Assembly: GCF_001029505.1 (NCBI RefSeq)
Contig: NZ_LEKH01000012.1
Location: 1 to 64,000 of the forward strand
Length of the DNA: 64,000 nt
Direction: 5' to 3'
Source: Rubrobacter aplysinae
GTDB taxonomy: Bacteria > Actinomycetota > Rubrobacteria > Rubrobacterales > Rubrobacteraceae
Of this stretch, positions 5,860 to 60,414 are shown piece by piece (within the stretch, counting starts at the first letter, position 1; every line of letters starts with the position of its first letter). Made by a program: the position numbers and the translations under genes. The notes below the pieces were generated by a model. It did not search any database. It had not been told where the DNA came from and saw only the letters and a program-made list of their open reading frames with translations.

Positions 5860-6110
5860 CTCCGGGGCTCGTATCCCTTTCCGGTCTGTTTTTCTGTTTC
5901 CTTCGGTTTTTCCTATTTCGCGGTGTCGTCGGGCCTCTGGTCCGGTGGATTCTAACCGGGGAACTGCGGCCCTCAAGGGATATAGCAGAGCCTCCGGCCT
6001 ATTACCAGTTGTCCGGGAGGCTCACGGAAGATTTCCCGGGCGCGGATCGGATAAAATGTGGTGGGTGGCCGTTGACGGCCCGCCGGTAGACGCCGAGAGA
6101 GGAGATGCGA

Positions 6111-25754: not shown

Positions 25755-26930
25755 ATGAAGGTGCTTACGGTCCACAACGAGTATCAGCAAGCGGGGGGCG
25801 AGGATCTGGTCTTCGAGGAGGAGGCGGATCTGCTAGAGGCCCGCGGTCACCAAGTGATGCGGTACCGCACGACCAATGACCGGGTGGAGGAGCTTGGCTA
25901 TGCCGCCCTGACCAAAGAGACGCTCTGGAGCTCCGCATCCTACAGGGAACTGCGGGATGTCATGCGTACAGAGCGCCCGGGCGTGGTGCACCTGCATAAC
26001 ACCTTTCCCCTGATCTCACCCTCGGCCTACTATGCGGCCGCCTCCGAGGGCGTGCCGGTCGTGCAGACCCTCCACAACTACCGGCTGCTGTGTCCAAACG
26101 GGCTCTTTTATCGTGACGGTGCTCCCTGCGAGGATTGTCTTGGCAAGGTCGTTCCTTGGCCCGGAGTTCTGCACGCTTGCTACCGGAATAGCCGCGCGGC
26201 CACCGGCCTCGTCGCGGCGATGCTCTCCGCCCATCGGGCCCTTGGAACCTACTCGAGCAAGGTGGACGCCTACGTAGCCCTCACAGAATTCTCCCGGCAA
26301 AAGATGGTGCAGGGCGGGCTCCCCCCGGAGAGGCTACACGTCAAGCCGAACTTCGTTTACTCGGACCCCGGGCCAGGGAACGGGGAGGGGGGCTACGCGC
26401 TCTTCGTCGGCCGGCTCTCAAAGGATAAGGGAATTAGGACCCTGTTAGCGGCCTGGCAGAGGCTGGACAAGGGTGTACCGCTCAAGATCGTCGGCGACGG
26501 GCCACTCGCTGACCTCGTGGCTCGGGCTGCGGAAACCAATCCTCGCGTCGAGTGGCTCGGGCGAAAAACGATGCAAGAGGTGAATGCTCTCATGCGGGGG
26601 GCTCTCACCCTCGTCTTCCCATCAGAGCTTTACGAAACTTTCGGGCGGGTCGCGGCGGAATCTTTCGCCGCCGGTACCCCGGTAGTCGCGGCTAATCATG
26701 GCGCGGTCGCCGAACTCGTCGAGCACGGGCGCACCGGGCTCCGCTTCCGGCCCAGAGACGCAGCGGACCTTGCTTCTCAGGTGGAACGCTTGCTAGGAGA
26801 GCCCGAAGGCCGGGCCAGGATGCGCCGCGCGGCCCGTGCCGAGTTCGAAGAGAAGTACACCGCCGAGGAGAACTACCGACGTCTTATCGGGATCTACGAG
26901 TCGGCCGCCGGGGCGGGGGTGCGTGCTTGA
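25755..26930 (+). CDS. Glycosyltransferase, GT4 family
   Basis: A 391-residue GT-B glycosyltransferase. The N-terminal domain carries VHLHNTFPLISPSAY and a paired-cysteine loop (LLCPNGLFYRDGAPCEDC) found in one GT4 subgroup. The donor-binding domain has FVGRLSKDKGIRTLL and the E-x7-E motif region PSELYETFGRVAAESFAAGTPV. It would add a sugar to the lipid-linked repeat unit. Translation is coupled to the next gene by a 4-base overlap. Confidence 0.92.
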   Translation: MKVLTVHNEYQQAGGEDLVFEEEADLLEARGHQVMRYRTTNDRVEELGYAALTKETLWSSASYRELRDVMRTERPGVVHLHNTFPLISPSAYYAAASEGVPVVQTLHNYRLLCPNGLFYRDGAPCEDCLGKVVPWPGVLHACYRNSRAATGLVAAMLSAHRALGTYSSKVDAYVALTEFSRQKMVQGGLPPERLHVKPNFVYSDPGPGNGEGGYALFVGRLSKDKGIRTLLAAWQRLDKGVPLKIVGDGPLADLVARAAETNPRVEWLGRKTMQEVNALMRGALTLVFPSELYETFGRVAAESFAAGTPVVAANHGAVAELVEHGRTGLRFRPRDAADLASQVERLLGEPEGRARMRRAARAEFEEKYTAEENYRRLIGIYESAAGAGVRA

Positions 26931-27751
26931 ACTCCGGCGGCGCGTCGCCCGGTGGCGCGAGTCTCACATCCAGAGCGGTGGTCGGGATGCGGGTGGACGC
27001 GACATCCTACGATGATGCCTCGGAGCGGATAGTCCGGTGGGCCTCGGAGCGCCGCTCGGCCTACGTATGCGTCGCCAACGTCCACATGGCGATGGAGGCC
27101 GCCGAATCGCCAGAGTTTCTGCGGGTGGTGGGCGGGGCAGACCTCGTGACCCCCGATGGCAGGCCGCTGGTGTGGGCCTTGCGGCTGCTCGGGGTGAAAT
27201 GCGCTTCTCAGGTGCGCGGTACGGATCTTGTGGCGGAGGTGTCCGCCCGCGCCGCTCAGGAAGGCCTCCCAGTCGGGCTCTACGGCAGCAAGCCAGAGGT
27301 GCTCGGAGAGCTAGGGGAGGAGTTGCGGCGACGCTTTCCGGGCCTCGAGGTGGCATGCGGCATCTCGCCACCTTTCCGCGAGATAACCACCGAGGAGGAT
27401 GAGGAGTTTACCCGTCAGGTAGCGGAGTCTGGGGCGCGCATTCTGTTCGTCGGGCTCGGATGTCCCAAGCAGGAGCGGTGGATGGCGGCACATCAGGGGC
27501 GTATACCGGCGGCTATGATCGGGGTCGGGGCCGCGTTCGAGTTCTACACCGGGCGTATCCCGCAGGCCCCGCGCTGGATGCAGTCTGCCGGGCTCGAATG
27601 GGCGTACAGGCTGTACCGGGAGCCCAGGAGGCTCTGGAGGCGCTACGCTCGACACAACCCGAGGTTCGTGGCGCTGCTCGCGCTACAGTTGGTCAGGGAA
27701 TACGGAAGATTCGGGAAAAAGAGAGACGAGAAAGAAGGGTCGCGTGGCTGA
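26927..27751 (+). CDS. WecG/TagA/CpsF-family glycosyltransferase (GT26)
   Basis: A 274-residue protein with the GT26 hallmarks: [64 protein letters not shown] and [12 protein letters not shown]. Members add ManNAc, ManNAcA or a related sugar to a polyprenyl-linked first sugar. It begins at TTG 26927 inside the stop of the preceding gene and overlaps the next gene by 8 bases, so it sits in the middle of a tightly coupled operon. Confidence 0.92.
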
Positions 27752-28802
27752 CGAGAACAAGAAGGCTCTGATCACCGGCATCACCGGCCAGGACGGCTCG
27801 TATCTGACAGAGTTGCTCTTGAGCAAGGGCTACGAGGTACACGGCATAATCCGCCGCGCCTCAGTCTTCAACACCGACCGCATAGATCACCTCTACCGCG
27901 ACCCCCACGACCCCGAAGCCCGCATGCGGCTCCACTACGGAGACTTTACCGACGCCAGTGGTCTCCGCCGGGTTCTCCAAGAGGTGATGCCCGACGAGGT
28001 GTACAACCTCGGGGCCCAGTCGCACGTCAAGATCTCCTTCGAGCAGCCCGAGTACACCGGCAACGTCGACGCCCTCGGCACGCTGCGCTTCCTCGAAGCC
28101 CTCCGGGACGTCCAGAACGAGAGCGGCAAGAAGATAAAGTTCTACCAGGCCGGGACCTCGGAGATGTTCGGGGCCGCGCCGCCGCCACAATCCGACTCTA
28201 CCCCCTTCTATCCCCGCAGCCCCTACGCCGTGGCCAAGGTTTACGCACACTGGATGACGGTAAATTACCGTGAGGCCTACGACCTGTTCGCCGCCAACGG
28301 AATCCTCTTCAATCACGAGTCCGAGCGCCGGGGAGAGACGTTCGTGACGCGCAAGATCACCCGCGCCGCCACCCGCATAAAGCTCCGGCTCCAGGACAAG
28401 CTGTACCTCGGCAACCTCGACGCCAGCCGCGACTGGGGCCACGCCGAAGACTACGTCGAGGCGATGTGGCGCATACTCCAGCAGGACTCCCCGGAAGACT
28501 TCGTCATCGCAACCGGAGAGTCCTACACCGTGCGCGAGTTCGTCGAGCGAGTGTTCGGCTACCTGGAGCTAGACTGGGAGGCCCACGTCGAGATAGACCC
28601 CGGCTACTTCCGTCCAACCGAGGTCGAGGCGCTCGAAGGCGACGCCACCAAAGCTCGCGAGACACTCGGCTGGGAGCCCAGGGTACGCATAGATGAACTC
28701 GTCCGCCGCATGGTCGACTTCGACTTCGAGCTAGCCCGCCAGGAGAAGACGCTCAAAGAGGCTGGACACGCCTTCGTCCCGAGAGGAGTAGCGAGCCAGT
28801 GA
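27744..28802 (+). CDS. gmd: GDP-mannose 4,6-dehydratase
   Basis: A 352-residue short-chain dehydrogenase/reductase enzyme converting GDP-D-mannose to GDP-4-keto-6-deoxy-D-mannose. The NADP site is [12 protein letters not shown], the RR-containing loop is GIIRRAS, and the catalytic Tyr-x3-Lys is in [12 protein letters not shown]. The characteristic [19 protein letters not shown] segment and [17 protein letters not shown] are intact. It begins at GTG 27744 and overlaps the following GDP-fucose synthase gene by 4 bases. Together the two supply GDP-L-fucose, so fucose (or a close 6-deoxyhexose) is a likely polymer component. Confidence 0.96.
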
Positions 28803-29761
28803 GCCCCGCAGACCAGATGGACAGAGACAGCAGGATCTACGTCGCCGGACACCGGGGCCTGGTCGGCGCCGCTATCCTCCGCAGGCTACAAGGCGAAGGC
28901 TATGAAAATCTGATCACGCGCACCAGCGCCGAGCTTGACCTTACCGATGCCAGAGCCGTAGAGGACTTCTTTGCCTCCGAGAAACCGGAGTACGTCTTCT
29001 TGGCGGCGGCGAAGGTCGGCGGCATCATGGCCAATGATACCTACCCGGCGGACTTTATCCGGGACAATCTGACGATACAGCTAAACGTCATAGACGCCGC
29101 ATACCGTCACGATGCAGAGAAGCTCCTGTTCCTGGGAAGCTCCTGCATCTACCCTAGGCTCGCGCCGCAGCCCATGAAAGAGGAGCATCTACTGACCGGC
29201 GAGCTAGAGCCTACCAACGAGCCATACGCCATTGCGAAGATCGCGGGCATAAAGCTTTGCCAGTCCTACAATCGCCAGTACGGAAGCAATTATATAAGCG
29301 TCATGCCCACGAACCTCTACGGCCCCGGAGACAACTTCGACCTACGAAACAGCCATGTCCTGCCCGCGCTGATCCGTAAGTTCCACGAGGCTAAAGAGCG
29401 CGGCGCGGAGAGCGTGGAGGTGTGGGGCAGCGGAACCCCACGCCGGGAGTTTTTGCACGTTGACGATCTGGCCGACGCCTGCGTATATCTTATGCGGATC
29501 TACTCCGGCGACGAGCCCGTGAACGTCGGTGTCGGTCAAGATATAAGCATCGGGGAGCTCGCGGGTCTCGTGCGCGGCGTTGTTGGATTCGAGGGCGGAC
29601 TCGCCTACGATACCTCTAAACCCGACGGCACTCCGCGCAAGCTACTCGACGTTAGCCGCCTGGAGAGTCTCGGCTGGCGGGCGAAGACTCCCCTGCGCAA
29701 CGGCATCGAGCAAACCTACGAGTGGTTCCTGAGAACCTCGTCTGTAAAGAGCGGGGGCTAG
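28799..29761 (+). CDS. fcl: GDP-L-fucose synthase
   Basis: A 320-residue epimerase/reductase that turns GDP-4-keto-6-deoxymannose into GDP-L-fucose. Visible motifs: [17 protein letters not shown] (NADP), [40 protein letters not shown] (Tyr-x3-Lys) and [12 protein letters not shown]. It follows gmd with a GTGA overlap and ends the rightward operon. The next gene converges from the other strand 35 bases away, with no clear hairpin between. Confidence 0.96.
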
Positions 29762-38423: not shown

Positions 38424-39155
38424 TCACTTGTAAGCCTGCTTGCCGTAGTATCCGGCGGTGGAGCCGCCGACGTTGCTCATAACGGTGCCGAACACCTTCG
38501 CCCCGACGGCCTCCAGGCTGCGCCTGCTCTGGCGTAGGGCCGCCTTGCGGGTCTTCTGAGCGTCGAGCACTAGCAGTACGCCGTCGCCCTGACTGGCGAG
38601 GATTGAGGGGTCGGAGACCAGCCCGACCGGGGGAGCGTCGAGCAGCACGTAGTCGAACTCCCGGCGTATTGCAGAGAGAAACTCCGAGAACCGTTTGGAG
38701 CCCAGAAGCTCCGTCGGGTTCGGCGGTATAGGGCCGGAGGTTATTACCCGCAGGTTCTCGACCGGCTCCCGCCAGACGCCGGCGGGCTCCCGGCCGCCGG
38801 CGACCACGTCTACCAGGCCCCGCATGTTGCGCAGGCCGAAGATCTGGTGTAGAGAGGGCCGCCTAAGGTCGCAGTCCAGGATCAGGGTGCTCCTCTCTGC
38901 CTGCGCGAGCACGACCCCGAGGTTCGCGCAGACCGTGCTCTTGCCCTCCTGGGGATTGGCGCTGGTTAGCACTATCACCTCTGGGGGCTCGTCCACGAGG
39001 GCGTAGATCAGGTTCGTACGCAGGGTTCGGTACGCCTCGGCGGCGACGCCTTCCGGGTCGAGGAAGGTCACGAGACCGTCGGATACGCCGCTGCCGGAGG
39101 TCTGTTGCTGTTGGTCCTGGGGATCTTCCTGGGGGCGTTGGAAGTCTTCACTCAT
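38424..39155 (-). CDS. CpsD/CapB-type bacterial tyrosine kinase
   Basis: A 243-residue cytoplasmic BY-kinase. Walker A is SANPQEGKSTVCANLG, Walker A' is LILDCDLRRPSLH, and Walker B is DYVLLDAPPVGLVSD. The C-terminus YYGKQAYK is a minimal tyrosine cluster for autophosphorylation. The N-terminal ETYRTLRTN-like element (EAYRTLRTNL) is the oligomerisation segment. It overlaps its membrane activator gene by 4 bases, the usual CpsC/CpsD arrangement. The likely phosphatase partner is the LMW phosphatase at 16.7 kb. Confidence 0.92.
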   Translation of the reverse strand: MSEDFQRPQEDPQDQQQQTSGSGVSDGLVTFLDPEGVAAEAYRTLRTNLIYALVDEPPEVIVLTSANPQEGKSTVCANLGVVLAQAERSTLILDCDLRRPSLHQIFGLRNMRGLVDVVAGGREPAGVWREPVENLRVITSGPIPPNPTELLGSKRFSEFLSAIRREFDYVLLDAPPVGLVSDPSILASQGDGVLLVLDAQKTRKAALRQSRRSLEAVGAKVFGTVMSNVGGSTAGYYGKQAYK

Positions 39156-42999: not shown

Positions 43000-43452
43000 A
43001 TGAGAATCAGGTCTGTCGTAAAGCTGTCGCTGGTCTTGATCCTCATTCTGGTACTTACTACAGAGGGATACTACCTCTACTCGTACTACGCGAACCTCCC
43101 CTCGGGTCTCCCGGACTCCGGCTCTGTGGACTCTGGCTCCACTTCCGCGGTAGAGGATTCGGCGGGCCTCCCGGGAGAGTCTACCGTGTTCGTCCACCGC
43201 GTAACACCAGAGAACAATTCAGCCAATAGCACCTACCTGGACAACCCTTTAACCAACGGTAACCCTGCGGTCGTCGTAGTCGTTACGCAGAGCTGGAACC
43301 CGGGAGGCCAGGGCGGAACCTACAATGACCATTCCGTGGGAGTATGGTACGACGCCAGCAGGGACAGATGGGCCATCTTCAACCAGGATAGAGAGCCCAT
43401 GCCAGATGATGCGGCCTTCAACGTCCTTGTCTTTCCGGACTCTACGGGATAG
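43000..43452 (+). CDS. Exported protein with DUF7452-like domain
   Basis: A 150-residue protein. One N-terminal membrane helix or signal (LSLVLILILVLTTEGYYLY) is followed by a Ser/Asp-rich spacer. From residue 63 comes a compact domain (VFVHRVTPENNSANSTYLDN, then TQSWNPGGQGGTYNDHSVGV and ending WAIFNQDREPMP). This matches a conserved domain found in many secreted proteins of unknown role, which I recall as DUF7452. ATG start preceded by a GGGGGG run. It stands alone downstream of the surface protein gene. Confidence 0.72.
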   Translation: MRIRSVVKLSLVLILILVLTTEGYYLYSYYANLPSGLPDSGSVDSGSTSAVEDSAGLPGESTVFVHRVTPENNSANSTYLDNPLTNGNPAVVVVVTQSWNPGGQGGTYNDHSVGVWYDASRDRWAIFNQDREPMPDDAAFNVLVFPDSTG

Positions 43453-43509: not shown

Positions 43510-45162
43510 CTATACCCACGACCCGGCTGTATCCGGGGACTGGTACGTTTTTATCCTCTCTGATCTCCCGGAACCGTCCGAGTTGCCCATCGGGGGCCGC
43601 TCCGCCGTCTGCACCCGGACGACGTCGAAGCCTTCTGGCCCCTCCGTGCCCACACCGGGCACGATCAGGGGAGCCGGGGAGGGGATGGTATGCCCCGGGA
43701 CTCTGGAGAGAAAGGCGGAGATCATCGCGTGGGACTCCTCGACGGCTGCGGGGGAGCGGTCCGGCTGCGGCGGGATTGCGGCCTGGGCCGTGGCGTGTAT
43801 CCCGTGCAGGGATACCGCATCGAGCAGCAGCGAGGCGTCCACTCCGGGGCCGACGGGGAAGGGGAGCGAGCGCAGCAGCGGGCGGCGGGCGGCTACGAAG
43901 TGTGACAGGGGCTCGGTGAACCCGGCTAGCTCGGGGTGGTGGAGGTTGATCATGGGCACTCCCACCAGCCTGGATAGCTCGGAGCCGGCACCCGGCGAAT
44001 ACCCCTTGACCATGTGCAGGCTGCGGCGTTCGAGCAGTGGGGCGAGCAGAGCCGGGACCGCTGCCAGAGACCCTGGATGCGGGTCCGGCAGCAGGACGAC
44101 GAGTTCCCCGTCCGCTTCAGATAGTCCCCGCCACAGCGCGTCGCCCCTGCCCATTACCAGGCCCAACTCCTCCGTTAGAGGCGCGCCGCCGCCTCGTACC
44201 GGGACCGGTATCAGGGTTGGCTCCGCGTCTGTGAACTCCGTGAGCCCTGTCAGAACCCTCAGATCCTGCATTTCCAGGGGACCGGGGGTCTCATCGTGCG
44301 TGGGCGCTATTATGCTGACCGTGACGCGCCCGCCGGTCACCAGGTTCTCCGGTGGCTCGGGGTAGGTATTGTTCTTTAGCCAGGAGGCCAGGGAGAGGTC
44401 CCGTGCGAGCCCCCGGCTCGCACGCCCGACGAGCCGGGGCGAGGTCGAGACCCGCACGTCTAGCGGGCGCTGTATCGGTACGTTGCAACGCTCCAGTGCG
44501 CTCTCCAGTTGCTCGTCTTCCAGGGCGGCCCGGGGCTCCAGGCCGCCGACCTCCTGGTACGCCTCGGCGGTCAGGGACATCGAGGCGCCCGAGAACTGCC
44601 AGTGTTCTGCCCGGGAGTCGGAGCCTGGATCGTCCCGCCGCCCGAGGATATCCTGATGACGTGCCTCGCCCCGGCGCTCGCGCCAGGATCGTACCTCGTC
44701 TGATAGTCCGTCTTCGTCCAAGAGCTCTATCCGGCCCCCGATCGCCCTCGCTCCTCTTTCCGCGGCCCGGAGCTGCCGGCAGACCCAGTCCGGGGCGACG
44801 ACAGTATCTGCGTCGGTGGAGGCTATGAGAGCGTCCGGGAGCCCGAGGGAGATCAGCCGCCCACAGGCCGCTTCCATGCCCGCCCGCCGAGCGTGGCCCG
44901 CCCCGAGACCGGGACCTTCAAGCAGGGCAAGCCTTAACTCCGGGTAACCGGAGGCCGCCTCCAGAGCCCGGTCCGCGGTGGCGTCTGAGCAGCCGTCTAG
45001 CACCAGGATCACCTCGTACTCCTCGGGCTTTACCCCACTCTGCACGGCCAGCGAGCGTATGCAGCGCCCGATGAGATCCTCTTCATCTTTTGCCGGTACC
45101 ACGACCGAGACCTTGAGGCTCGGCTCGGGAGGCCCGAGAGGTGGAAGCTCTACGCCGCTCAT
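43510..45162 (-). CDS. GT2-family glycosyltransferase, extended
   Basis: A 550-residue cytoplasmic protein. Residues about 15-250 form a complete GT-A domain: VSVVVPAKDEEDLIGRCIRS, LVLDGCSDAT, STDADTVVAPDW (DxD) and GGLEPRAALEDEQLESAL. Residues about 290-500 (PTLIPVPVRGGGAPLTEELG onwards) look like a second, degenerate transferase-type domain related to glucosyl-3-phosphoglycerate synthases, with LPDPHPG in place of a clear DxD. It is the last gene of the five-gene overlapping operon and begins inside the stop of the flavoprotein gene. Likely it forms the glycosidic bond of the operon's unknown product. Confidence 0.85.
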   Translation of the reverse strand: MSGVELPPLGPPEPSLKVSVVVPAKDEEDLIGRCIRSLAVQSGVKPEEYEVILVLDGCSDATADRALEAASGYPELRLALLEGPGLGAGHARRAGMEAACGRLISLGLPDALIASTDADTVVAPDWVCRQLRAAERGARAIGGRIELLDEDGLSDEVRSWRERRGEARHQDILGRRDDPGSDSRAEHWQFSGASMSLTAEAYQEVGGLEPRAALEDEQLESALERCNVPIQRPLDVRVSTSPRLVGRASRGLARDLSLASWLKNNTYPEPPENLVTGGRVTVSIIAPTHDETPGPLEMQDLRVLTGLTEFTDAEPTLIPVPVRGGGAPLTEELGLVMGRGDALWRGLSEADGELVVLLPDPHPGSLAAVPALLAPLLERRSLHMVKGYSPGAGSELSRLVGVPMINLHHPELAGFTEPLSHFVAARRPLLRSLPFPVGPGVDASLLLDAVSLHGIHATAQAAIPPQPDRSPAAVEESHAMISAFLSRVPGHTIPSPAPLIVPGVGTEGPEGFDVVRVQTAERPPMGNSDGSGRSERIKTYQSPDTAGSWV

Positions 45163-46361
45163 ACGGGCATGGGCGCCCCGGACTCCACCAGCTGCCGGCC
45201 CTCTTCGTAGTCCTTATCGAAGTTATGTGTCAACACACCCACACAAATATCTTCGCGTCCGTACCACACGGTAAAGGACTCCTCCGAGCCGTCGTGGGGG
45301 ACGAACTTCGCCTCGTCCGAGCCGTCCCCCCAAGCGGTGTACTTGATCGTGCGTCCCCCGATGGTGGACCAGAAGCCGGGGGCGGTGTCCCACCGCGCCT
45401 CGCCGCCGGCCATGACCGTGCCCGCCACACTGCCCATGCTCAGCGCCTCCCCCCAGTGCTCGACGTGCAGCCTGCGGCCTGCGGAGGGGTTGTATGCGTA
45501 GGAGATATCGCCGACGGCGTACACGCCGGGCGCCTCCGTGCGCATCGCGGCGTCGGCCAGGATGCCGCCGGGTTCGACGGTAAGGCCGGCGTTCTGGGCT
45601 ATCTCCAGCCGGGGCCTCGCGCCCGTCCCGAGCAAGACCGCGCCAGACGCGAGCGGCTCGCCGCCGCCAAGCGCGACCTCGAAGCCCTTTTCGGAGCGGC
45701 TTATCTTCTCGACCTCCGCACCGAGCCGGAGCCGGACGCCGTATTCTTCCAGCCAGTGCCGGATGCGCCCGCCGGCCTCCTCGCCGAGCAGGGCCCCCTG
45801 CGGCAGCTCGTCCAGGCTGACCACCGTGACCTCGGCGCCGCGCATCGCCAGGGAGGCGGCGGCCTCGCAGCCGATAAAGCCGGAGCCCACGACGATTACG
45901 CTGTTACCATTTGCGGCCAGCCAGGAGAGGCTGGTGGAGTCCTCGACGGTGCGCATGGTGAGGACCTCCGGGTCCTCCGCGCCGGGGATGGGTGGCCGGA
46001 TCGGCTCGGAGCCGGTGGCCAGCACGCAGGCGTCGTAGGGGATCTCGTCCCCGCCCTCCACACCCACGACGCCGCGCCCGGCATCCAGGTAGGAGGCCGG
46101 AGTCGCCGGCCTGAGCTCCACGCCGTTCTCCTGGAACCAGGTCGCGGGCTGCATCGGGAGCTCGTCTCTCTCCAGCTCGCCACGCAGGTACTCTTTCGTC
46201 AGCGGCGGCCGCCGGTAGGGCGGGTGTTGCTCCCCGGCCAGGAGGGTCACGTGCCCGGTGCCGCCGGTGTCCCGGTAGGCTCTAGCCGCCGATATACCGC
46301 CCGGGCCGCCGCCTACGATCACCACGCGCTCTTGCTGGTTCTGACGGGCTTGCTGGGTCAT
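45159..46361 (-). CDS. FAD-dependent NAD(P)H oxidoreductase, ferredoxin-reductase type
   Basis: A 400-residue flavoprotein with two dinucleotide folds: FAD site VVIVGGGPGGISAARAYR, NADH site VIVVGSGFIGCEAAASLA, and FAD pyrophosphate motif TEAPGVYAVGDIS. The PPYRRPPLTKEYLRG segment and overall length match ferredoxin/rubredoxin reductases of oxygenase systems (BphA4/ThcD type). No ferredoxin or oxygenase is adjacent. In this operon its natural electron acceptor may be the acyl-CoA-dehydrogenase-like protein or an unlinked ferredoxin. 4-base overlaps on both sides. Confidence 0.88.
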   Translation of the reverse strand: MTQQARQNQQERVVIVGGGPGGISAARAYRDTGGTGHVTLLAGEQHPPYRRPPLTKEYLRGELERDELPMQPATWFQENGVELRPATPASYLDAGRGVVGVEGGDEIPYDACVLATGSEPIRPPIPGAEDPEVLTMRTVEDSTSLSWLAANGNSVIVVGSGFIGCEAAASLAMRGAEVTVVSLDELPQGALLGEEAGGRIRHWLEEYGVRLRLGAEVEKISRSEKGFEVALGGGEPLASGAVLLGTGARPRLEIAQNAGLTVEPGGILADAAMRTEAPGVYAVGDISYAYNPSAGRRLHVEHWGEALSMGSVAGTVMAGGEARWDTAPGFWSTIGGRTIKYTAWGDGSDEAKFVPHDGSEESFTVWYGREDICVGVLTHNFDKDYEEGRQLVESGAPMPV

Positions 46362-46954
46362 TCGGTGTCTCCGTTCCGGTCGTCCTCGTACAGCTCTAGC
46401 CGGTAGTCCGGCGTCGCCCGCTGGATCCGCGGGGAGAGCATGGTGCTGGCCCGGATAGCCTCGTGTACCTCGTCGCCCCCTAGCGGGTACGTCCGCGTCT
46501 GGTGCCGCCAGTGGACGGCGAGCAGCGTGCCGCCGGGGGCGAGCGCCGATTCTAGACCACGCAGCGCGGCGAGCATCGTCTCCCGGTCGAAGTAGTAGAG
46601 GACCTCTGAGGCCACGATCAGGTCAAACGGGCCTTCCGGCGTCTCCTCGGGCATCGTGCGACGCTCGACCCGGACGTTCGGTACGGAGGCTAGCCGCTCG
46701 CGGGCCAGGGCAACGGCCTTCTCCGAGGCGTCCACGGCGAGCAGGCTGTCGCAGTACGGGACCAGCATCGCGGTGAACACCCCGATGGAGCACCCGATCT
46801 CCAGCGCCCGCCCGAAGTGCCGACCACCGAGCGCGGACAGGGTATCCTCGTACTTCTTCCGCTCGTAGTCACTGGTAGAGAAGTTCCACGGGTCGTCGGA
46901 GGCTCTGTACAGTCCCTCGAAGTATTCGCGATCCAGCCGTCCGGCGCGGCTCAC
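46358..46954 (-). CDS. NodS-like SAM-dependent methyltransferase
   Basis: A 198-residue class I methyltransferase starting at GTG 46954, which overlaps the previous stop (GTGA); the longer frame to 47134 merely lies over the upstream gene. The N-terminus LDREYFEGLYRASDDPWNFS and KKYEDTLSAL is typical of the NodS group (N-methylation of the sugar amine in Nod factors). The SAM site is ALEIGCSIGVFTAML, followed by LLAVDASEKAVALA and DLIVASEVLYYF. It lies downstream of a NodB-like deacetylase gene in the same operon, so a deacetylated amino sugar is a plausible substrate. Confidence 0.87.
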   Translation of the reverse strand: MSRAGRLDREYFEGLYRASDDPWNFSTSDYERKKYEDTLSALGGRHFGRALEIGCSIGVFTAMLVPYCDSLLAVDASEKAVALARERLASVPNVRVERRTMPEETPEGPFDLIVASEVLYYFDRETMLAALRGLESALAPGGTLLAVHWRHQTRTYPLGGDEVHEAIRASTMLSPRIQRATPDYRLELYEDDRNGDTE

Positions 46955-48129
46955 CGCTCGTCCGCTCCCCTGGAGTCCAGGATCGCCTCCCGGCCGGCGC
47001 GGGCGAGGGCCGGTTCGAGGCGATGCTGGAGCAGAAACAGCTCTAGGTCGCGCCGGGCGCGGTCCAGCGGGCCGGAGACGGCGAACGGGCGCGAGCCGCA
47101 GGCCCGGGCCGCCTCGTCGAGCATCCTGCGGCACGAGTCGGCGATCGTCGAGCGGAGCCGGATCGAGAGCCCGGCGAACGACGCCTCCGCGTCCGCGTCG
47201 GCGACGGTGGCGGCGTGCTCGATCCAGCGGTCCATCGTGCCCCGCTCGGCCAGCATCCTGCCGGCGGCGAGCGAGACTATGTCGTCGGGATCTCCGCCCG
47301 TCTTCTCCGCCAGCGTCGCCAGGGCCGAGTCCACGGCGCGGTCGGCGATGCCCGCCCAGGAGACGGCGGTTCGGACCGCGTCGCGGCCAAAATATGGGTC
47401 GCGGGAGATCTCACCCGGACCACCGAGCACGGCGAGCACCGGAGCGTCCCGGAAAACGACTCGGTGGCTCTCCGAGGAGCGCATGCCCGCGCTCCTGTAC
47501 CAGCCCCGGTCTATCTCGTGGCGTTCGGGCGCTCCCGAGAGGTCCACGTACGCCAGATACGGTGGTCCTGGCGGAGAGCCCTCCGGCCCTCGGGCCAGCA
47601 CCAGGGCCCGGTCCACGCCGCCCGCGCCGGAGCAGAAGGTCTTGACGCCGTGCAGGGTAGTCTTATCTCCGGCCCCGGCTAGCCGCGCGGGCTCGCCCTC
47701 GCCGGGGACCGGGTCCGCGCCCCAGAGCCCGAGCAGTAGCCCACCGCCGGCGACCCTCTCCAATTCCAGGCTGCGTAGCGGCTCGGGGGCCGCGATGGAG
47801 AGCCGCTCGACGGCGTTGAGGTGGCCGTCGTAGATCCGTCCGACGGAGCCGTCGGCATCGGCTACCGCTCTGAGCGCGGACCACTCCTTCCTGAACGTTG
47901 CCCGGCGTCCGGGGCCCGATACCGGCTCCGGTACGGGCAGGGCGAGCGCCCCCGCCCGTGCGAGCAACTCGAAAGGGAGGTGGGGGAAAGCCGGGGATTC
48001 GTCACGCCCGGCCGCGCCGCGCCGTATTTCGGCGAGGGCGTCGTCCAGGACGGCGTGATCCAGACCCGGAAGCGGGGTGCTCTCATCCAGCCTACTGGTC
48101 TCGCGGGTATCGCCGGTCGTAGATCTCAT
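46951..48129 (-). CDS. Acyl-CoA/acyl-ACP dehydrogenase-like protein
   Basis: A 392-residue protein with the acyl-CoA dehydrogenase layout: N-terminal helical domain (residues about 25-125), beta domain (about 130-225, GLWGADPVPGEGEPARLAGA, then KTFCSGAGGVDRALVLA), and C-terminal four-helix domain (about 235-385). The general-base glutamate and the usual FAD loops are poorly preserved, so this is a divergent group. It is joined by 4-base overlaps to the deacetylase upstream and the methyltransferase downstream. Proteins of this kind recur beside NodS-type methyltransferases and glycosyltransferases in actinobacteria. The reaction is not known to me. Confidence 0.8.
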   Translation of the reverse strand: MRSTTGDTRETSRLDESTPLPGLDHAVLDDALAEIRRGAAGRDESPAFPHLPFELLARAGALALPVPEPVSGPGRRATFRKEWSALRAVADADGSVGRIYDGHLNAVERLSIAAPEPLRSLELERVAGGGLLLGLWGADPVPGEGEPARLAGAGDKTTLHGVKTFCSGAGGVDRALVLARGPEGSPPGPPYLAYVDLSGAPERHEIDRGWYRSAGMRSSESHRVVFRDAPVLAVLGGPGEISRDPYFGRDAVRTAVSWAGIADRAVDSALATLAEKTGGDPDDIVSLAAGRMLAERGTMDRWIEHAATVADADAEASFAGLSIRLRSTIADSCRRMLDEAARACGSRPFAVSGPLDRARRDLELFLLQHRLEPALARAGREAILDSRGADER

Positions 48130-48842
48130 TTCCCCTCCAGAGAGTCCGCGCCGCCGGTCACGTCGGTCACGTGGGGTATGGGGGACATGGGCCGTGGCTC
48201 GCAGCCGAGCTCGCGGATACGCCGGGACAGCTTCCCGACCAGCGCGACGGTCTGCTCGCAGCCCTTACGACGGGCTCCGGGGCCGAGGCCGTCGTGCATC
48301 AGCACCACGGAGCCGGGACCGATATCGTCGCCGATGCCGTCCAGCATCTCGCCTGCGGCGTCTCCGCGCCAGTCGTGGGTGTCCTCGGTCCAGAAGGCCA
48401 GGCCGAGACCCATATCGGCGGCCACCTCCTGCGTCCACGGGGCACAGACGCCCCACGGCGGACGCCAGAGCGTGGGGCTCGCGCAGGCCTCCGCGAGGTC
48501 TCGCAGCCCGGCGCGGGCATCTTGCTCGACCTCGTCCCTGGTCATCTCTGTGTGGCGTACGTGCCGGCTACAGTGAAGCTCCACCCGGTGCCCGTTCCCG
48601 AGAGCAGAGCGGATCAAACCCGGATAACGTCGGGCCAGCGGCGCCACGGCGAAGAACGTGGCCCTGGCCTCCGCCTCTTCCAGCGCCCGCAGCACGAGCG
48701 GGGTCCAGATCGGGTCTGGCCCATCGTCGAAGGTCATCGCCACCCCGGGAGCCGCCTCTCGGGGCTCCTCCACGCTACTGCTCTGACGTGGCGGCTCTAG
48801 TACGGTCTCCGGTATGATCCTGTTTGTGGCGGGGCCTGACAA
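48126..48842 (-). CDS. NodB-type polysaccharide deacetylase
   Basis: A 238-residue carbohydrate esterase 4 domain protein without a signal peptide, hence cytoplasmic. Motif 1 is TFDDGPDP (catalytic base and metal Asp), motif 2 is the HxxxH of ELHCSRHVRH, motif 3 is WRPPWG, motif 4 is TEDTHDWRG, and motif 5 is LMHDGLG. All catalytic residues look present, so metal-dependent N- or O-deacetylation of a sugar is expected. The start is unusual: TTG 48842 has no good ribosome site, while a strong one serves an out-of-frame ATG 19 bases upstream. First gene of the five-gene operon. Confidence 0.88.
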   Translation of the reverse strand: MSGPATNRIIPETVLEPPRQSSSVEEPREAAPGVAMTFDDGPDPIWTPLVLRALEEAEARATFFAVAPLARRYPGLIRSALGNGHRVELHCSRHVRHTEMTRDEVEQDARAGLRDLAEACASPTLWRPPWGVCAPWTQEVAADMGLGLAFWTEDTHDWRGDAAGEMLDGIGDDIGPGSVVLMHDGLGPGARRKGCEQTVALVGKLSRRIRELGCEPRPMSPIPHVTDVTGGADSLEGK

Positions 48843-49196: not shown

Positions 49197-49991
49197 CTAC
49201 ACTCCCGGCGCCTTGTCCTTGGCGGGAGATACCTCCGTGGCGACGGCCGAGCGGAACTGCGCTACTATCTCCTCCCAGGCCACCTTACCCTGCCGGTCAC
49301 TGGCCTGGGTCGCCTTCCACAACGTGCCGGACTCCGGTACGAAGTCGTCGGGGACGGGGAGCACGTCGTACCAGGGGTGGCGCTCGGAGGCGTCGTCCAC
49401 CGCCCGGTCGAAAATGACGAGCTCGGGCCGGAGGTGGAGCATGAGCGAGGTCTCCATGCCGGCGGCGTGCTCCACGTCCCAGCCCGCGAAGCCGCTCGGG
49501 AAGAGCACGTCGAGGGTTTCCTGGGATAGCTCGGCGAAGGGATGCTCTGCGAGGACTATGCGGGCACCACTATCGGGGTGACGCTCCAGCGCCAGGTAGG
49601 CCGCCTCGTAGATGAAGTTCTGGTTCTCGAAGTGCCAGTTGACCAGCGCCAGGCGCTTGAAGCCCTGATCCACCAGCGCCCCGACCACGTCCTCCACCAG
49701 TGACATCAGCGTCCGGGCGTTTAGAGACGTGGTGCCGACGAACCCCTGGCCGCCGCCGCTCAACGGACGCGAGCGGTAGCCGTACTCGATGGGCGGTGCG
49801 ACGAGGAAATCCAGCTCGTCGGCGACCGCGTACGATAGCTCGGTGGCGAGGATGGTGTCCGTCGCCAGTGGCAGGTGGTAGCCGTGCTGCTCGGTCGCCC
49901 CGATGGGTATGAACACCCCGGCGTCGCGCCCGATGGCCTCCTCGACCTCGGGCCACGTCATCTCAGATAGCGTCCTGGTTCTCTGTGCCAC
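49197..49991 (-). CDS. Creatininase (creatinine amidohydrolase)
   Basis: A 264-residue metal-dependent cyclic amidohydrolase interconverting creatinine and creatine. The metal residues fall at the same positions as in the Pseudomonas putida enzyme as I recall it: Glu34 and His36 (GATEQHGYHLP), Asp45, and His120/Glu122 (NWHFEN). The SGGGQGFVGTTSL loop and GWDVEHAAGMETSLML are also conserved. Creatinase is encoded two genes upstream, which strongly favours true creatininase over related mycofactocin-type amidases. GTG start after GGAGAG. Last gene of the leftward operon. Confidence 0.92.
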   Translation of the reverse strand: MAQRTRTLSEMTWPEVEEAIGRDAGVFIPIGATEQHGYHLPLATDTILATELSYAVADELDFLVAPPIEYGYRSRPLSGGGQGFVGTTSLNARTLMSLVEDVVGALVDQGFKRLALVNWHFENQNFIYEAAYLALERHPDSGARIVLAEHPFAELSQETLDVLFPSGFAGWDVEHAAGMETSLMLHLRPELVIFDRAVDDASERHPWYDVLPVPDDFVPESGTLWKATQASDRQGKVAWEEIVAQFRSAVATEVSPAKDKAPGV

Positions 49992-50097
49992 TTTCTCTCC
50001 TATCTAGCTATCCAGGCGTTGGCTTACCGCGGAGGAGACCGGGAGACATACTCCACCCGGGCTCCTCGATGCGTCGCGGCTGTTGGGCTCGGTACCG

Positions 50098-51441
50098 CTA
50101 CTCCCGTACGGGTTCCTCCTCGTGCTCGGCGCGCGGCTCGGCGTTGCGGGGTTCGGGCTGACGGACGACGGACTCCGGCGTCGCGCCGGCCTTCTCGGCG
50201 ATCTTGTTGAGGATCAGATAGATCACGACACCGGCTATGAGGCCGTTTACCGGCGGCACGCCGGGCGAGAACTGCGCCACGAGGCAGGCCGCGAAGTAGG
50301 TGACGATGCCGACCCAGTTGAACGCCGGAAGTCGGACCGAGTCCAGATCCGGGACGTTGGCCCGCCACTTGATGAAGTAGTCGGCGGCTATCACGGCGCC
50401 GACCGGCGGGATGAACGTGCCGAGGAGGATCAGGTAGCTCTCCAGGAAGTTGTAGAAGCCGCTGATGGCGAGCACGATGCCGATGAGCGCGCCGCCGATG
50501 ACGATCCCCCGGCGCTTCTCGGTGCGGAAGAAGTTCGCCCCGGCTACGGAGAAGGCGTAGGCGGTCCGGTCGGCGGTGGTCCAGACGTTGAGTAGCATCA
50601 GGAGGAGCCCGGCGGCCAGTAGGCCCTGTATGCCGAGCACGCGGGTCAGGTCCGCCTCCTGATACACCAGCGCGCCCATCGCTCCGGCGAAGATAAAGAG
50701 GCCGTTGCCGAGGGTGAAGGCGACGAATCCAGCAAGGATGGCGCCTTTTGTGGTGGAGCAGAAGCGGGTCCAGTTGGTGATCTGGGTGCCACCGCTTACG
50801 AAGGTGCCGATGATCAGGGTCAACGCCAGCGCGATGCCGACCTCGGAGGTCGCGCCGATGCCGGTGAGGTCCGAGAGGCCGCCGGCGTCACCGGTGGCCA
50901 GCCACAGGCTTATGCCTATCAGAATCAGCATCGTGGGTACCGACACGCGGCTCAGTATGGCGAGCGCGGAGATGCCGATGTACGCCGTCCAGGTAAAGGC
51001 CAGGGTGAACAGGATGACCAGCGGTATGAACCACCCCGGGCCTATAATGTCGGCCAGGATCACGCCGGGCAGGGCTATCGCCCAGGCGTACCAGCCGATC
51101 TGGGTAAAGCCGAGCAGGCTGTCCACAATCTTGCTGCCCTTCTCGCCGAAGCTAAAACGGGCCAGCAGCACCGTGTTCAGGCCGCTGCGCTGGGCGGCGA
51201 CGCTGAGGACGCAGACGTACGCGCCGAGCATCGCGCTCCCCAGCATCACGACGCCGACCATATTCCAGAAAGAGAAGCCGGGACCGACCTGGCCCCCGGC
51301 GTACATCGAGCCCACCCAGAAGGTAAACCCGAGCAGGATCAGGGCTATCGTCCAGTCCGACCTCCGCGCGCCCTGTGGCACCGCCTGCAGCGGGTAGTCT
51401 TGCTTGCTCTCTTCCTGTCTTGCCGCCTGACTCTGGCTCAT
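50098..51441 (-). CDS. NCS1-family permease (CodB-like)
   Basis: A 447-residue transporter with about 12 membrane helices. The start is ATG 51441 (AAAGGAGC upstream, product beginning MSQSQAARQ); the frame is open further to 51516. NCS1 features include FTFWVGSMYAGGQVGPG in helix 1, GWYAWAIALPGV in helix 3 and NWTRFCSTTKGA in the middle. Characterised relatives take up cytosine, allantoin or hydantoins by proton or sodium symport. Lying between creatininase and creatinase it probably imports creatinine, possibly also cytosine, since a CodA-like deaminase is nearby. Confidence 0.88.
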   Translation of the reverse strand: MSQSQAARQEESKQDYPLQAVPQGARRSDWTIALILLGFTFWVGSMYAGGQVGPGFSFWNMVGVVMLGSAMLGAYVCVLSVAAQRSGLNTVLLARFSFGEKGSKIVDSLLGFTQIGWYAWAIALPGVILADIIGPGWFIPLVILFTLAFTWTAYIGISALAILSRVSVPTMLILIGISLWLATGDAGGLSDLTGIGATSEVGIALALTLIIGTFVSGGTQITNWTRFCSTTKGAILAGFVAFTLGNGLFIFAGAMGALVYQEADLTRVLGIQGLLAAGLLLMLLNVWTTADRTAYAFSVAGANFFRTEKRRGIVIGGALIGIVLAISGFYNFLESYLILLGTFIPPVGAVIAADYFIKWRANVPDLDSVRLPAFNWVGIVTYFAACLVAQFSPGVPPVNGLIAGVVIYLILNKIAEKAGATPESVVRQPEPRNAEPRAEHEEEPVRE

Positions 51442-51672
51442 CTTGCGCTCCTTTCCCTGCTTTGTCCTGATTTCTTGGCCGCTCTCACGTCCCTCGGGCC
51501 CAGGTTTGCTCCACAACCGCCGTGGGTTTCTCCCGCTGGCGGGAGGGGGATCCGGCCCCGACCCCGCCGGCTTTTACCCTGGTCTCGAAGAATGGGCGTG
51601 TCTCCCTCGTTTATCCTCGGAGCGCGGCCCGGTCCCCACCAGTTCCGCCACGCTCCGAGGCTTTATACTTGG

Positions 51673-59106: not shown

Positions 59107-60414
59107 ATGCTGGAGAAGAGGACGCCGCTGTACGACTTTCACCTGCGGGCGGCGCGGGATCTCGTAAAGGGCGGCGGCGACTACATGTTCCCGACCTCCT
59201 ACACCTCGCCGGTGGAGGAGCACCTCAACGTCCGCCGTCACGCCGGCCTGCAGGACCTCTCGACGATGGGCGAGGTAGACATCAAGGGGCCGGGCTCGGA
59301 GCGTCTGGTACGGCGGCTCCTGGTGAACGAGGTACAGGACATGGAGCCCGGCCAGCTCCGGTACACGACCATGTGCAACGAAGAGGGCGGCATCGTAGAC
59401 GACGTTACCGTGTACAAGTTCGACGACGAGCACTTCATGATCGTGGTCAGCTCCGGGCCGCGGGCCAAGAGCTACCGTTGGATCCGGGACCACGCCGAAG
59501 GCTCAAGCGCCTACGTGACCGACGTAACCGCCTCGCTCGCCCTGCTCTCCGTACAGGGTCCTCTCTCGCGCATGTATCTAAAGAGCGTGGTGGAGGGCGT
59601 GGATCTCGACACCCTCCGGTTCTTCCGGTTCGCCCCGGCCACCATCGGCGGGGTAGAGATACTCGTGTCGCGCTCGGGATACACCGGCGAGCTCGGGTAC
59701 GAGCTGTACGTGCCAAGCGATCAGGCCGGGCCGGTCTGGGAGTACATCCTCTCCACGGGCCGGGAGTTTGACCTCAGACCCTACGGCTTGGAGGCGATGC
59801 AGTCTCTACGCATCGAGAAGGCGCTGCCGCTGTACGGGCCGGACATCAGCGAGGACTACACCCCGTTCCACCTCGGGCTCGACGGGTGGATCAAGTTCAA
59901 AAAGCGGGACTTCATCGGGCGCGAGGCGCTACTCAGGGCTCAGGAGCAGGGGCTGGACAAGCGCTGGGTCGGGCTCACACTGGACAGCGAGATACCGGCA
60001 ACCAAGGACGACGCGATCTACGCCATCGGCGACGTATCCACCTTCCGCGAGCTCGTCGAGAACGGCGCAGAGGCCGGGGATTACGAGGACGAGTTCCTCG
60101 CCGGAGACCGGAAGGTCGGCTACGTAACCTCAAGCACCTACGGGCCGTCCGTGAACAAGATGCTCGCGCTCGCCTACGTGGACACCGCCCACGCCTGGCC
60201 CGGCGGTAACTTGCTAGTGGAGATCGGCGGCCGCCCCGTGCCCGCGAAGGTCACGCAGACTCCATTCTTCGACGCGGAGTTCGCCCGGCCTCGCTCAAAG
60301 CCCGAGGACGATCTGGGCCGCTCCAAGCCCTCGCCCTCGCCGGTGCCGGCCCTGTACAACCGGCCGGGCATGGATTTCCGTACGCCCGCCCATTCCGGTA
60401 ACGGGAGGTCGTGA
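59107..60414 (+). CDS. GcvT-like folate-dependent aminomethyltransferase
   Basis: A 435-residue protein of the GcvT/dimethylglycine-oxidase C-domain family. Motifs: EEHLNVRRHAGLQDLSTMGEV, NEEGGIVDDVTVYKF (folate site), GYTGELGYELYV, GLEAMQSLRIEKALPLYG and GREALLRAQEQGLDKRWVGL. The C-terminal 40 residues are a polar Pro/Ser-rich tail. GcvT itself is usually about 360-370 residues. It is translationally coupled to monomeric sarcosine oxidase, so it probably transfers the methyl-derived carbon of sarcosine to tetrahydrofolate, as the GcvT-like domain does within heterotetrameric sarcosine oxidase. AAGGAGG precedes ATG 59107. Confidence 0.88.
   Translation: MLEKRTPLYDFHLRAARDLVKGGGDYMFPTSYTSPVEEHLNVRRHAGLQDLSTMGEVDIKGPGSERLVRRLLVNEVQDMEPGQLRYTTMCNEEGGIVDDVTVYKFDDEHFMIVVSSGPRAKSYRWIRDHAEGSSAYVTDVTASLALLSVQGPLSRMYLKSVVEGVDLDTLRFFRFAPATIGGVEILVSRSGYTGELGYELYVPSDQAGPVWEYILSTGREFDLRPYGLEAMQSLRIEKALPLYGPDISEDYTPFHLGLDGWIKFKKRDFIGREALLRAQEQGLDKRWVGLTLDSEIPATKDDAIYAIGDVSTFRELVENGAEAGDYEDEFLAGDRKVGYVTSSTYGPSVNKMLALAYVDTAHAWPGGNLLVEIGGRPVPAKVTQTPFFDAEFARPRSKPEDDLGRSKPSPSPVPALYNRPGMDFRTPAHSGNGRS

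Follow-up and report, generated by a model that had tools for sequence, protein, structure and literature searches.

A conserved Rubrobacter operon that appears to be a NodB-type variant of a widespread ACAD-like/PIG-L/NodS-like/GT2 gene module

Enzymes of the NodB type and of the PIG-L family have unrelated folds, and both remove N-acetyl groups from amino sugars. In the synthesis of Nod factors by Rhizobium and Azorhizobium, the deacetylase NodB and then the N-methyltransferase NodS act on an amino sugar; in the synthesis of mycothiol (MshA/MshB) and bacillithiol (BshA/BshB), a glycosyltransferase is followed by PIG-L de-N-acetylation of a small glycoside. Amino-sugar nitrososynthases and group D flavin monooxygenases (KijD3, DnmZ, EvdC/ORF36, and DszC) have the fold of the acyl-CoA dehydrogenases (ACADs) without their catalytic glutamate, and GpgS and MpgS are the synthases of glucosyl- and mannosyl-3-phosphoglycerate. 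Here, we describe an operon in a 64,000-nucleotide stretch of Rubrobacter aplysinae DNA (NZ_LEKH01000012.1, positions 1 to 64,000; hereafter, the window), part of a 3.19-Mb genome, that brings relatives of these enzymes together. On the minus strand at 43510-48842, five genes encode a NodB-like deacetylase, an ACAD-like flavoprotein, a NodS-like methyltransferase, a ferredoxin-NAD reductase-like flavoprotein (FdR), and a family 2 glycosyltransferase (GT2).

The deacetylase and the methyltransferase belong to the same superfamilies as the Nod-factor enzymes, but in the window they stand beside flavoproteins. The thiol pathways differ from the gene set in their thiol ligase (MshC/BshC), which was not seen in the set and in place of which an N-methyltransferase and an ACAD-like flavoenzyme are found, and in a glycosyltransferase of family GT4 rather than GT2. 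The ACAD-like protein is nearest by profile to the group D monooxygenases but is only about 20% identical to them and has a C-terminal Q/H motif where DszC-type enzymes have HTLHD. A further comparison is provided by a PIG-L-type set found, for example, in Comamonas (L163), Acinetobacter johnsonii (L165), Novosphingobium (L166), and a Streptomyces-like locus (L152). It has the same ACAD-like group, the same NodS-like and GT2 families, and frequent 4-base overlaps, but differs from the window operon in having PIG-L for NodB and a GT2 without a GpgS-like second domain, and the loci examined contain no FdR. Judged from the sequences, the window set is best described as the NodB-type variant of a wider ACAD-like/PIG-L/NodS-like/GT2 module.

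That the five genes form a functional unit, as an earlier note on this DNA had proposed, is borne out by other genomes. Strong matches to the ACAD-like protein were found in 24 of the 36 Rubrobacteraceae genomes, and the gene order around these matches is identical wherever the contig is long enough. Among the 27 Rubrobacteraceae in a phylum-wide sample, the ACAD-like and NodS-like genes were both present in 20 and both absent from 7, never one alone, a pattern with a frequency of 1 in 888,030 by label shuffling that ignores relatedness. The NodB/ACAD-like/NodS-like/FdR/GT2 order was also present in 16 Thermoleophilia loci (Solirubrobacterales, Conexibacter, and Paraconexibacter), which were found by searching genome contigs with an alignment query, a single-protein query having given nothing. 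Rare co-occurrence across genomes, which would have spoken against such a unit, was not seen. The flanks vary: in most relatives, an AspS-like gene lies upstream of the operon, and Sir2-like and HisS-like genes lie downstream of it (all three recognized by eye), whereas in the window a creatininase gene lies beside it. In Rubrobacter indicoceani, a NodB-type operon is carried on a 170-kb plasmid (L161; 169,605 bp). These sequence comparisons support a genuine functional unit of five genes, conserved across two classes.

It is this conservation, and not the overlaps between the genes, that constitutes the beyond-chance evidence for the unit. All four junctions in the window are 4-base overlaps; the genes and overlaps listed in the earlier note are all present at the positions it gave, and our domain calls agree with it. 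Its step from strict coupling to a stoichiometric pathway could not be upheld. Because the junction type is common in the window (at least five further 4-base overlaps appear in the open reading frame list, at 5973-5976, 26927-26930, 28799-28802, 39152-39155, and 60411-60414) and drifts between species, the overlaps are no proof of special stoichiometry; they show an operon, with co-transcription or coupling. The conserved set also needs trimming from five genes. FdR had no match in four Thermoleophilia loci (L097, L102, L105, and L113), is displaced to a nearby site on the opposite strand in L110, and was absent from the PIG-L versions examined; since several relatives lack it or have it elsewhere, the core consists of four genes.

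The wider core of ACAD-like, PIG-L, NodS-like, and GT2 genes occurs in other Actinomycetota, in Deinococcus, and in Alpha-, Beta-, and Gammaproteobacteria. The related PIG-L sets in other actinobacteria that the earlier note mentions do exist but are not confined to that phylum. A PIG-L motif was found in 10 of the 12 NodS-like loci of other Actinomycetota, with Pfam confirming four, and these 12 loci mostly have an adjoining ACAD-like gene and GT2 as well; in the Streptomyces-like locus every junction is a short overlap. Plasmids of Kitasatospora, Comamonas, Acinetobacter, Novosphingobium, Pandoraea, Sphingobium, Bradyrhizobium, Deinococcus, and Komagataeibacter carry ACAD-like/PIG-L/NodS-like sets, mostly with a glycosyltransferase. 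The set is looser in places: no annotated glycosyltransferase lies beside the three genes in Roseomonas and Pandoraea, PIG-L lies a few kb from the rest in Cupriavidus, the genes are dispersed in D. radiodurans, and Methylobacterium (L176) has the ACAD-like gene only.

No PIG-L motif was found in the NodB-type loci, and PIG-L and NodB never occurred in the same locus among those examined. The window operon shares the ACAD-like, NodS-like, and GT2 families side by side with the module, but has NodB in the place of PIG-L. Because this is a swap between unrelated folds of common activity, it indicates de-N-acetylation, and no other evidence for a single chemical step of the pathway is as strong. 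In a tree with an outgroup of seven rows, the ACAD-like proteins of the NodB and PIG-L versions form a supported group (99/97) that excludes canonical ACADs and DszC-like enzymes, and those of the NodB version form one group (100/100). One genome (G003) carries, besides the full operon, another NodB-NodS pair that lacks both ACAD and FdR (L160; contig G003:C22, 7192-8543 and 9889-10899) with a stand-alone GpgS-like gene nearby, which is in line with the two enzymes acting in succession.

The label acyl-CoA-dehydrogenase-like, given to the second protein of the operon in the earlier note, is right as to the fold: a structure model (pLDDT 85) has the ACAD fold, and the Pfam domains Acyl-CoA_dh_1/M match marginally, below their gathering cut-off. 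By sequence and active-site residues, the protein is instead flavin-monooxygenase-like. In an alignment with canonical ACADs, His369 occupies the position of the MCAD-type catalytic glutamate ('YEGT' is replaced by 'QHRL'), and Val252 occupies the IVD-type catalytic position, where the family has Val, Ile, or Leu. No operon-type row of the alignment, PIG-L versions included, has a glutamate at either position, and a canonical acyl-CoA dehydrogenase was rejected for this reason. In place of 'YEGT', the NodB- and PIG-L-version proteins have a common DL-x-x-Y/F-x-x-Q tail, and the best Protein Data Bank (PDB) profile matches include DszC, the nitrososynthase 3mxl, and KijD3. We predict that the protein is a flavin-dependent monooxygenase rather than a dehydrogenase. 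A match in Paucimonas (L115) was placed outside the module because it is a DszC/SfnB-like enzyme whose gene has a sulfur/ABC-transport setting.

The remaining proteins have the features of their families. The NodB-like protein belongs to the CE4 (NodB-homology) family, since it matches Polysacc_deac_1 (PF01522; 3e-20) with 72.7 bits against a gathering cut-off of 23.1 and has all five CE4 motifs, which are invariant in 21 homologues: TFDDGP (D39, D40), HCxxH (H90, H94), RxPWG (R127, P129, W130), DW (D157, W158), and LxHD (L181, H183, D184). The NodS-like protein is a member of the Pfam family PF05401 (1.7e-25; 90.5 bits against a gathering cut-off of 24 bits) with conserved DPW and ExGxS S-adenosylmethionine (SAM) motifs. 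Its closest solved chains are 4isc (E=3e-38) and then NodS itself (3ofj); PDB 4isc, which is named only 'methyltransferase', could come from a PIG-L version of the module. FdR matches Pyr_redox_2 (2e-56). GT2 matches Glycos_transf_2 (2e-19), and its D56, T116-D117-A118-D119, and L214-E215-D216-E217 are invariant in 17 homologues. This protein exists in two forms of about 260 and about 550 residues, the second domain being absent from about half of the loci and encoded by a separate gene in L110 and L160. The profile of region 247-516 matches GpgS (7p5l; E=1.5e-38) along its length and also MpgS (3f1y). The DSD motif of GpgS reads P-D-P in the window and DxD was found in none of the eight long homologues, so that the second domain is probably non-catalytic and inactive as a synthase.

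With moderate confidence, we propose that the five genes specify a single small-molecule pathway and are the NodB-type form of a module that makes a de-acetylated, N-methylated, oxygenated amino-sugar glycoside, probably related to stress. The order of steps, substrates, and product that we infer are as follows. The N-terminal domain of GT2, partnered by the non-catalytic GpgS-like domain, would use a nucleotide sugar as donor to place an N-acetylated amino sugar on a small acceptor. A cytoplasmic NodB-like enzyme would remove the acetyl group, and the NodS-like enzyme would methylate the freed amine. The ACAD-like monooxygenase would then oxygenate the product, possibly at nitrogen, with reducing equivalents supplied by FdR, which host reductases could replace.

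A role in stress is weakly suggested by the surroundings of the PIG-L versions. Stress features made up 14/87 of the neighbouring features in seven plasmids and 2/243 of the features in 40-kb control stretches from the same plasmids (Fisher P=2.5e-7). The keywords were catalase, trehalose/maltosyltransferase, Ku, LigD, ferritin-like, CsbD, general stress, and DUF421, a list fixed after the module loci had been seen and before the controls were fetched. Among the STRING neighbours of the light sensor BlsA of A. baumannii are LmbE, a glycosyl transferase, and a SAM methyltransferase, and katE and otsB are light-induced (PMC9948694); these data fit a stress context but test nothing.

Several observations weigh against the proposal. 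Counted per locus, stress features occur in 6/7 against 2/7 (P=0.10), and the association comes from few, non-independent genes of the PIG-L versions. The neighbourhoods of the NodB type are mixed and not clearly stress-related: they include a ferritin-like gene in L097, a GH15 trehalase-like gene and topoisomerase IB in L104, and DUF72 in L101, and the remaining neighbours examined concern transport and respiration. FdR has no partner ferredoxin in the window operon, and the usual substrates of such reductases are ferredoxin or rubredoxin rather than free flavin. That the methyl group goes to nitrogen is an assumption based on family resemblance. Finally, a fold search ties monooxygenases with dehydrogenases (Z 32-34 for both), so that the case for a monooxygenase is made by residues and profile order and not by the fold.

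This tie, with a structure equally close to dehydrogenases, speaks for dehydrogenase activity of the ACAD-like protein, with an amine or a carrier-bound compound as a conceivable substrate and FdR as the electron acceptor. FdR could accept electrons, and ColB1 (7xp7), a carrier-tethered dehydrogenase with the same fold, is among the fold matches. We nevertheless consider a dehydrogenase unlikely, as both known base positions are without glutamate in every operon-type row, the profile order favours DszC and nitrososynthases, and the PIG-L versions examined have no FdR. A similar degree of doubt attaches to a role of the module in making or decorating a glycolipid or a polymer of the cell surface, in which the ACAD-like protein would desaturate or oxidize a lipid chain and the NodB, NodS, and GT2 enzymes would modify surface amino sugars. 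CE4 deacetylases do often act on peptidoglycan or polysaccharide, and additional GT4/GT2 genes precede the module in some sphingomonads. However, the N terminus of the NodB-like protein shows no evident signal peptide or membrane segment, the conserved set has no flippase, polymerase, or acyltransferase, and the ACAD-like protein has no glutamate at the catalytic positions. The PIG-L enzymes of the thiol pathways, moreover, use small substrates, the action of MshB and BshB on cytoplasmic amino-sugar conjugates being established.

The presence of NodB-like and NodS-like enzymes alongside GT2 might suggest a lipochito-oligosaccharide pathway resembling that of Nod factors. The NodB-like protein reaches 110.1 bits against the NodB equivalog TIGR04243 (cut-off 240) and the NodS-like protein 89.9 bits against the NodS equivalog NF041650 (cut-off 300); because both are far below these curated cut-offs, a Nod-factor system was rejected. 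Neither NodA nor NodC is in the operon, GT2 has no NodC match in NCBIfam, NodA had no match in the genome, though the control search matched nowhere either, and the wider set uses PIG-L. We regard such a pathway as very improbable. We give as little credence to the idea that the genes are neighbours sharing a promoter without a shared pathway: 4-base overlaps are indeed common in the window, but the order is kept across two classes despite changing flanks, presence and absence are joint in 27 genomes, and Rubrobacter indicoceani has a plasmid copy.

The component families are known. What appears to be undescribed is the way in which they are combined, together with the exchange of the deacetylase and the addition of FdR. 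In agreement with the earlier note, no assigned pathway or product for the gene set was found in a literature search limited to open-licence papers. A gene set that has stayed together in three or more phyla, in both chromosomes and plasmids, and whose product was not found in the searchable literature points to an overlooked metabolite. Its neighbours (catalase, trehalose synthesis, Ku/LigD, ferritin-like, and CsbD) suggest survival of desiccation or oxidative stress, for which Deinococcus, Acinetobacter, and Rubrobacter are known, and the deacetylase swap, by fixing one step, opens the pathway to testing. As a tentative and somewhat doubtful extension, Actinomycetota, Deinococcota, and Pseudomonadota may share a widespread undescribed pathway to an N-methylated, N-oxygenated amino-sugar stress metabolite, in which Rubrobacteria and Thermoleophilia would have replaced PIG-L with a NodB fold and added a dedicated reductase.

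Table 1. Genes, domains, and overlapping junctions of the operon in window coordinates; fractions give the loci in which a junction is kept.
Feature	Position	Strand	Details
NodB-like (CE4) de-N-acetylase	48126..48842	-	238 aa; TTG start uncertain
ATGA overlap, NodB stop / ACAD-like start	48126..48129	-	kept 15/24 Rubrobacteraceae (script), 12/16 Thermoleophilia
ACAD-fold flavoprotein, predicted flavin-dependent monooxygenase	46951..48129	-	392 aa; profile matches and residues
GTGA overlap, ACAD-like stop / NodS-like start	46951..46954	-	kept 19/24 Rubrobacteraceae, 13/15 Thermoleophilia
NodS-like SAM-dependent N-methyltransferase	46358..46954	-	198 aa; PF05401
ATGA overlap, NodS-like stop / FdR start	46358..46361	-	kept 19/22 Rubrobacteraceae, 8/10 Thermoleophilia
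FdR, FAD/NAD flavoprotein of BphA4/putidaredoxin-reductase type	45159..46361	-	400 aa; optional member
ATGA overlap, FdR stop / GT2 start	45159..45162	-	kept 20/20 Rubrobacteraceae, 4/10 Thermoleophilia
GT2 catalytic domain	44380..45162	-	residues ~1-260 of 550-aa protein; invariant DAD and ED motifs
GT2 gene, second domain	43510..44379	-	residues ~261-550; GpgS/MpgS-like, DxD lost

The first junction of the window itself is ATGA by direct reading and was not scored by the script; with it included, the overlap is kept in 16 Rubrobacteraceae loci. The start of the NodB-like gene is uncertain because the nearest AGGAGG lies about 21 nt upstream of the TTG codon and the first ~30 residues are unconserved. 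Some genomes have an ACAD-like gene that is divided over different frames or interrupted, as in L048, L049, and L050 (genomes G027, G023, and G020) and in the complete chromosome of Rubrobacter marinus (NZ_CP045121; L096). Such genes would be sequencing errors or decaying genes; in G020, G023, and G027 the fragments look frame-shifted, which makes the NodB/ACAD distances there unreliable. Two relatives (L036 and L037) have a Nudix-hydrolase-like gene between the ACAD-like and NodS-like genes, and on the Rubrobacter indicoceani plasmid arsM/arsR and PRC/DUF2382 genes lie a few kb from the operon.

Directly upstream of the operon, at 49197-51516 on the minus strand of the window, the creatininase gene (TIGR04448, 337 bits against a cut-off of 235) adjoins a gene for a cytosine-permease-type transporter; the two probably serve creatinine use, unrelated to the operon. 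Just beyond its 3' end, a convergent gene at 43000-43452 on the plus strand encodes a DUF7452 protein. Four further genes that follow one another with overlaps of 4 and 8 bases are found at 25755-29761 on the plus strand.

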